This document shows positions 14,661 to 43,467 of a stretch of 64,000 nt of DNA, in pieces. Below the pieces are notes generated by a model. The model made no database searches and was not told the origin of the DNA. It saw only the letters and a list, made by a program, of their open reading frames with translations. Positions within the stretch are counted from its first letter, which is position 1, and each line of letters starts with the position of its first letter. A program made the position numbers and the translations under genes. The DNA lies in the NCBI GenBank assembly GCA_025642075.2, contig JAODUO010001099.1, positions 42,501-106,500 on the forward strand. The letters are read 5' to 3'. Source of the stretch: Ridgeia piscesae. Its lineage: Eukaryota; Annelida; Polychaeta; Sabellida; Siboglinidae.

Positions 14661-14729
14661 TCATACTTCCATGAACTTTGGCGGTGTTGAGACAATGAAC
14701 GGCTCTGTCCACATTCGACGTAAGTCTCC
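14661..14729 (-). CDS. SPPL3: SPPL3 exon 13: C-terminal tail and stop
   Basis: It encodes [18 protein letters not shown] and FMEV, then TGA. The vertebrate tail has the same GDLRRMW-EPF start and a LEV end. The exon joins in phase 0 after MAYLK of exon 12. The acceptor is TTGTAG, preceded by CTAATCAC, a good branch-point match that lies in the last unit of the 50-bp array. Confidence 0.95.
   Translation of the reverse strand, partial: GDLRRMWTEPFIVSTPPKFMEV

Positions 14730-43467: not shown

Follow-up and report, generated by a model that had tools for sequence, protein, structure and literature searches.

The SPPL3 gene of the annelid Ridgeia piscesae carries tandem arrays that are concentrated at the borders of its exons, and at some of these borders the repeated unit copies the splice junction itself. 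We consider it probable that these arrays are intronic minisatellites of the type termed "mirages," born at exon borders and tolerated there. According to the available portion of one report, mirages are tandem duplications across exon-intron boundaries in the Adh3 and globin genes of amphioxus, which occur on both 5′ and 3′ borders with units of 10 to about 160 bp, coexist with apparently regular splicing, show length instability and leave their edge units outside homogenization (PMC3087553). The mechanism generating them was termed unclear there, and a role in intron gain was proposed (PMC3087553). A second report, likewise available in part, adds the amphioxus genes TnC (troponin C) and PGBD5 (PMC3902484). 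The sequence-only reading of this DNA had known of no described precedent, which these publications provide, and SPPL3 is best read as a case, outside the cephalochordates, of a structure already known.

Exons 2-13 of SPPL3 lie on the minus strand of the window (the whole 64-kb stretch of DNA that was analyzed) between positions 14661 and 43467, with AG and GT at all internal borders. The exon map, supported by the open frame at exon 2, places exon 2 at 43390-43467, exon 3 at 36895-36977, exon 4 at 36031-36150, exon 5 at 24044-24125, exon 6 at 23461-23573, exon 7 at 22565-22671, exon 8 at 21473-21544, exon 9 at 20771-20859, exon 10 at 20112-20157, exon 11 at 19334-19484, exon 12 at 18155-18264, and exon 13 with the stop codon at 14661-14729. 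Joined through their exon-proximal splice sites, these exons give a single open frame of 372 aa, which matches Peptidase_A22B in Pfam (E 1.2e-96) and reaches a best identity of 82% to SPPL3 proteins among the 120 of 1170 matches listed. Exon 1 was not found in the exon mapping, and the part of the window from 44 to 64 kb presumably belongs to intron 1. A tree of 50 rows was built from the window protein and 49 of the 120 listed proteins, without an amphioxus row (the 120 matches listed, out of 1170, name no amphioxus). In this tree, which rests on a single slowly evolving protein and includes Dimorphilus as a long branch, the window protein clusters with Capitella, Owenia, Dimorphilus and one further row with a support of 99/94, inside 41 spiralian rows (100/97) and apart from two echinoderm rows and one mammal row. 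The group labels of these rows are assumed to be correct. An amphioxus origin of the DNA, which the mirage publications had first brought to mind, was set aside in view of this position apart from the three deuterostome rows and of the best listed identity of 82%. Since the mirages in the publications consulted range within the cephalochordates and this SPPL3 groups with annelids, what is claimed here is the same structure, and not membership of an amphioxus-specific class.

Over 14661-43467, TRF gave 11 arrays with a period of 10 or more after overlapping rows had been merged, and exons 2-13 provide 23 splice junctions. Six of the 11 arrays lie within 20 bp of a junction, where 0.31 would be expected, and this count was equaled in 0 of 4000 permutations in which arrays were placed at random with an exon overlap of at most 15 bp. 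Both the 38-bp array at the exon 2 donor and the 72-bp array at the exon 3 acceptor span the junction, and the other distances are 0.5 bp (18-bp array, exon 3 donor), 7.5 bp (25 bp × 2, exon 8 donor), 12.5 bp (26-bp array, exon 12 donor) and 17.5 bp (50-bp array, exon 13 acceptor). When three microsatellites are added, 6 of 14 arrays lie within 20 bp (0.41 expected; 0/4000). A cut-off of 10 bp leaves 4 of 11 (0.23 expected; 0/4000), or 4 of 14 with the three microsatellites (1/4000), and among arrays with a TRF score of 200 or more, five out of seven are at borders (0.19 expected; 0/4000). TRF and the exon map agree with the sequence-only reading in placing arrays within 20 bp of junctions at five of the twelve exons (2, 3, 8, 12, and 13), with periods of 38, 72, 18, 25, 26, and 50 bp. 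Its view that these are separate expansions, drawn from the differing periods, is borne out, and within SPPL3 they are anchored at borders far above chance. Array birth in this gene is concentrated at exon borders. Counted against the mirage reading, 16 of the 23 junctions have neither a TRF array within 20 bp nor an accepted degenerate copy.

Ordinary minisatellites might simply favor GC-rich DNA, which in an AT-rich gene means the exons and their edges; neither exons nor splicing would then matter in any other way. Exon GC is indeed 0.54 vs. 0.37 in non-array introns, and where local GC is about 0.55, the share of intronic points no more than 20 bp away from a junction is 18%, against 3.5% overall. 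Because the exons are GC-rich, insertion was also simulated with local GC matched, which lifts the expectation just to 0.85, and 0 of 20000 draws reach six; with five presumed intron 1 arrays upstream of exon 2 added, the count is 6 of 16 against a GC-matched expectation of 0.52 (0/50000). Moreover, the border arrays of 50 and 72 bp have a GC of only 40-41%. GC content accounts for part of the border concentration at most, and we regard it as unlikely that a preference for GC-rich DNA is the whole explanation. Coincidence in one hand-picked gene, in a genome with no tendency to start arrays at borders, deserves very little weight. The gene was selected by eye and is the one gene tested, and since it was picked for its odd look, the permutation figures are no measure of a genome-wide rate; however, the three nulls yielded 0/4000, 0/20000, and 0/50000, and separate exon-derived units are present at exons 2, 3, and 12.

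The 38-bp array at the exon 2 donor (42788-43400, minus strand; TRF, motif counts and unit table) has a unit composed of the last 11 nt of exon 2, the donor and the start of the intron. The motif AGGTAAGT occurs 13 times on the minus strand of the window, as the authentic exon 2 donor and as 12 decoys in or just beyond the array, and once on the plus strand. Of the 11 exon bases, 6 to 10 survive in each of the five exon-nearest units, 10 or 11 (mostly 11) in the inner units and 9 in the outermost. On the other side of the same exon, alignment and shuffling revealed a tandem run of three degenerate copies, each of the acceptor with the exon start (43488-43640, minus strand); they had been overlooked earlier and retain up to about 30 exon bases. 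With copy limits set by eye, their scores of 42, 32, and 46 were reached in none of 1000 shuffles each, and the comparison of the acceptor with the 150 nt upstream was equaled in none of 300; TRF reported nothing at 43488-43640, even down to a score of 30. Old and young arrays stand side by side in SPPL3, and the occurrence of these degenerate acceptor copies beside near-identical units elsewhere suggests that births have recurred over time.

Exon 3 has arrays on both sides, as had been noted before, a 72-bp array across the acceptor (36945-37663, minus strand; TRF, motif counts and unit table) and an 18-bp array on the donor side (36539-36894, minus strand; TRF, motif counts and decoy reading). 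The 72-bp unit joins the acceptor to a decayed version of the opening ~33 nt of exon 3, with an identity of 24-26 of 33, and TTGTGTTGCAGG occurs nine times in the window, as the authentic exon 3 acceptor and as eight decoys. Save for the outermost unit (24 of 33 vs. 25-26), no edge gradient is seen in this array. Translated in frame, the units read SLNIDPETK and then stop. Since SLN..E..KEK is kept in all three homologs examined (P0001, P0002, and P0017) and the units differ from it, exon 3 is the source and the array a decayed copy. An exon that acts as master copy and refreshes its own array was considered and found unsupported, on the grounds that the exon 3 units share variants missing from the exon and that, within the 38-bp array, divergence is greatest in the units close to the exon. 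At the exon 3 donor, the 18-bp array begins with the first base of the intron and repeats GTAAGG as 14 decoys, without the authentic last exon base; the authentic donor context CGGTAAGG occurs once. The earlier statement that the units at exons 2 and 3 contain the splice site itself thus holds for the exon 2 donor and for both sides of exon 3, on the donor side only from the first intron base.

Selection may also have kept the arrays, in one of two roles: a redundant supply of splice or branch sites, or a set of in-frame alternative donors by which the loop following the first membrane helix is varied. The 18-bp period preserves the reading frame, and among the 5 of 14 exon 3 donor decoys that were read, decoys 1-3 (36823-36894) would add 6, 12, or 18 residues; branch-point-like motifs are also repeated ahead of exon 13. 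However, decoys 4 and 5 shift the frame, the single occurrence of CGGTAAGG sets all the 18-bp decoys apart from the authentic donor, and an early stop follows from each of the decoys read at the exon 2 donor (3 of 12) and at the exon 3 acceptor (3 of 8). Use of the latter two kinds would truncate the protein, so that they are better seen as near-neutral decoys that are ignored than as useful redundancy. Selection for splice-site redundancy, one of the explanations first offered, receives no support from these tested decoys, and maintenance of the arrays by selection appears very unlikely to us. As a separate observation, the loop that would receive the six-residue blocks from the exon 3 donor decoys varies between species.

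At exons 8, 12, and 13 the relation to the junction is looser. The repeat near the exon 8 donor (21415-21465, minus strand; TRF), a 25-bp unit without a splice site, had been called an array and does lie where it was reported, but it consists of only two copies. The 26-bp array near the exon 12 donor (17935-18142, minus strand; TRF and whole-exon alignment) has units that hold a copy of the exon 12 interior, 19 of 22 nt at 111 bp from the source, which had also gone unnoticed. Before the exon 13 acceptor, the 50-bp array of 55 copies (14747-17508, minus strand; TRF and motif counts) contains TGCTAATCAC in 56 copies and no splice site; by its letters TGCTAATCAC may be described as branch-point-like. 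The arrays of exons 8 and 13 adjoin their junctions without copying splice sites, which is counted against the mirage reading. As they merely abut the junctions, the initial heading, according to which the arrays copy their own splice junctions, was an overstatement; it is accurate at 4 of the 23 junctions and fails at exons 8, 12, and 13.

Junction copies were also sought by self-alignment, in which the 90 bases round each junction were compared with 800 bases on each side and with 1029 controls outside arrays and exons. Six of the 23 junctions were flagged, with 0 to 0.003 of controls scoring as high, namely the acceptors and donors of exons 2 and 3, the exon 12 donor and the exon 13 acceptor; the remaining 17 were unremarkable in this test (0.054 or more of controls as high). 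When all 1500 controls including array interiors are used, 22 to 29% score as high, because SPPL3 is rich in arrays, and given such a gene, the unusual feature is the position of the copies. A second test compared 63 junction bases with the 150 intron bases beyond (300 shuffles each) and flagged seven of 23 junctions, both sides of exons 2 and 3, the exon 8 donor, the exon 12 donor and, marginally, the exon 6 acceptor. Two junctions behave differently in the two tests. The exon 13 acceptor, flagged with 90 bases, is matched by 64.7% of shuffles in the second test, where its query holds only 23 intron bases, and the exon 8 donor is flagged with 63 bases (0/300) and unflagged with 90 (25%). The candidate copy at the exon 6 acceptor, an intron tail at 23668-23685, ~110 bp upstream, scores 28 vs. 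a shuffle maximum of 26 (0/300), with 5.4% of controls as high; it is marginal and was left uncounted because 23 junctions were tested. Finally, each whole exon was compared with 1.5 kb per side (150 shuffles each), and 2 of the 24 tests were flagged, exon 3 upstream (z 5.3) and exon 12 downstream (z 6.2). Hence no exon sequence was found in the 18-bp array, in the 50-bp array, or in those parts of the 24/72-bp and 36-bp arrays that fall inside this 1.5-kb reach. Two outcomes of the whole-exon test are counted against the mirage reading: exon 2 is unflagged on both sides (z 3.4 and 2.0), and exon sequence is absent from the arrays of exon 8, exon 13 and the exon 3 donor.

To the extent that the available parts of the amphioxus reports describe the mirages of Adh3, TnC, BflGb6, BflGb9, and PGBD5, the SPPL3 arrays resemble them in having units that span the exon-intron boundary at both types of border, many units with splice signals, and edge units left out of homogenization (PMC3087553; PMC3902484). 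Boundary-spanning units are found at the exon 2 donor, the exon 3 acceptor and, in degenerate form, the exon 2 acceptor; the exon 3 donor is borderline, and exons 8, 12, and 13 have none. AG or GT is present in the units as the 12 decoys of AGGTAAGT, the 8 of TTGTGTTGCAGG and the 14 of GTAAGG, and the 38-bp array shows the exclusion of edge units. Unlike the amphioxus cases, the host is an annelid and not a cephalochordate, as many as seven borders are affected in a single gene, and some arrays lie next to a border without crossing it. In the searched listings of literature outside the subscription journals, no arrays called mirages turned up beyond amphioxus, and the accessible text of a report on an abalone intronic minisatellite does not mention exon borders (PMC6905558). 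In human segmental duplications, exon-intron boundaries bear internal tandem repeats that are reported, in the portion of the paper available, as a possible source of introns (PMC2812944). Their units average about 30 bp, and like the SPPL3 minisatellites they sit at such boundaries and introduce cryptic splice sites, but they lie in exons of recent paralogs and may turn into intron, whereas the SPPL3 arrays are intronic and leave the exons unchanged (PMC2812944, seen in part). As in intron gain by tandem genomic duplication (the Rogers model, as treated in the available part of PMC3087553), duplicated splice signals provide raw material. Unlike in that process, the SPPL3 copies sit within existing introns, and no new intron lies inside an array, exons 2-13 being read in one frame. 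Introns are also said to have come from tandem arrays in work by Zhuo et al. in 2007.

On the mirage reading, a short segment spanning or abutting an exon border would have been duplicated in tandem. The exon-proximal splice site stayed in place and, judged at the sequence level, still yields the conserved protein, and the extra copies would fall into the intron and be nearly neutral. Tolerance of such a duplication would rest on the exon-proximal site, from which the normal exon is still made. The arrays may then expand by slippage or unequal exchange and homogenize among themselves, with the edge copies and the exon itself apparently staying out of this process, as the unit patterns indicate. 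Local duplication or template switching, the latter already named in the sequence-only reading, is a plausible cause of the arrays; at a guess, their concentration at borders could come from template switching or the repair of breaks, perhaps linked to transcription, at GC-rich exon edges in a transcribed, AT-rich gene.

That the arrays are false or wrongly sized products of assembly is the explanation we consider least probable. Within the intron 4 array T75 is directly followed by A85, which looks odd, and one amphioxus mirage was wrong in a draft assembly, according to the part of the report available (PMC3087553); against this, unit variants are common to non-neighboring copies, the exon 2 acceptor copies are degenerate, and the coding frame is intact. 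It is conceivable, though we hold it only tentatively, that exon borders are hot spots of array birth in several bilaterian genomes, annelid and amphioxus included, where a process connected with transcription, splicing or the exon edge itself copies splice sites into introns. If so, new splice sites and introns would have such arrays to draw on as raw material. A dense mirage case in an annelid suggests that array birth at borders is either convergent or widespread. The origin of mirages thereby becomes testable across animals with long-read genomes, with a bearing on how splice sites and introns are duplicated.

Several other features of the window were recorded. A 9.2-kb array with a unit of 35-36 bp (25765-34989) occupies the greater part of intron 4 and stops about 1 kb short of the exon 4 donor; at 31205-31364 it contains a perfect T75 then A85, which looks like an assembly artifact or an odd insertion. 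Two long ORFs on the minus strand at 1345-3119 resemble parts of a retroelement, with a protease-like motif recognized by eye, and ORFs on the plus strand at 5200-8076 presumably resemble SAMD9-like proteins. Pfam returned no family for four of these ORFs (one at 1345-3119 and three at 5200-8076), so that the window offers no exon map of a second gene for comparison. The plus-strand ORF at 6168-6926 has a single relative, with 94% identity over 79%, and one of the ORFs at 1345-3119 on the minus strand contains, in frame, a 45-bp unit repeated 13 times with 99% identity.
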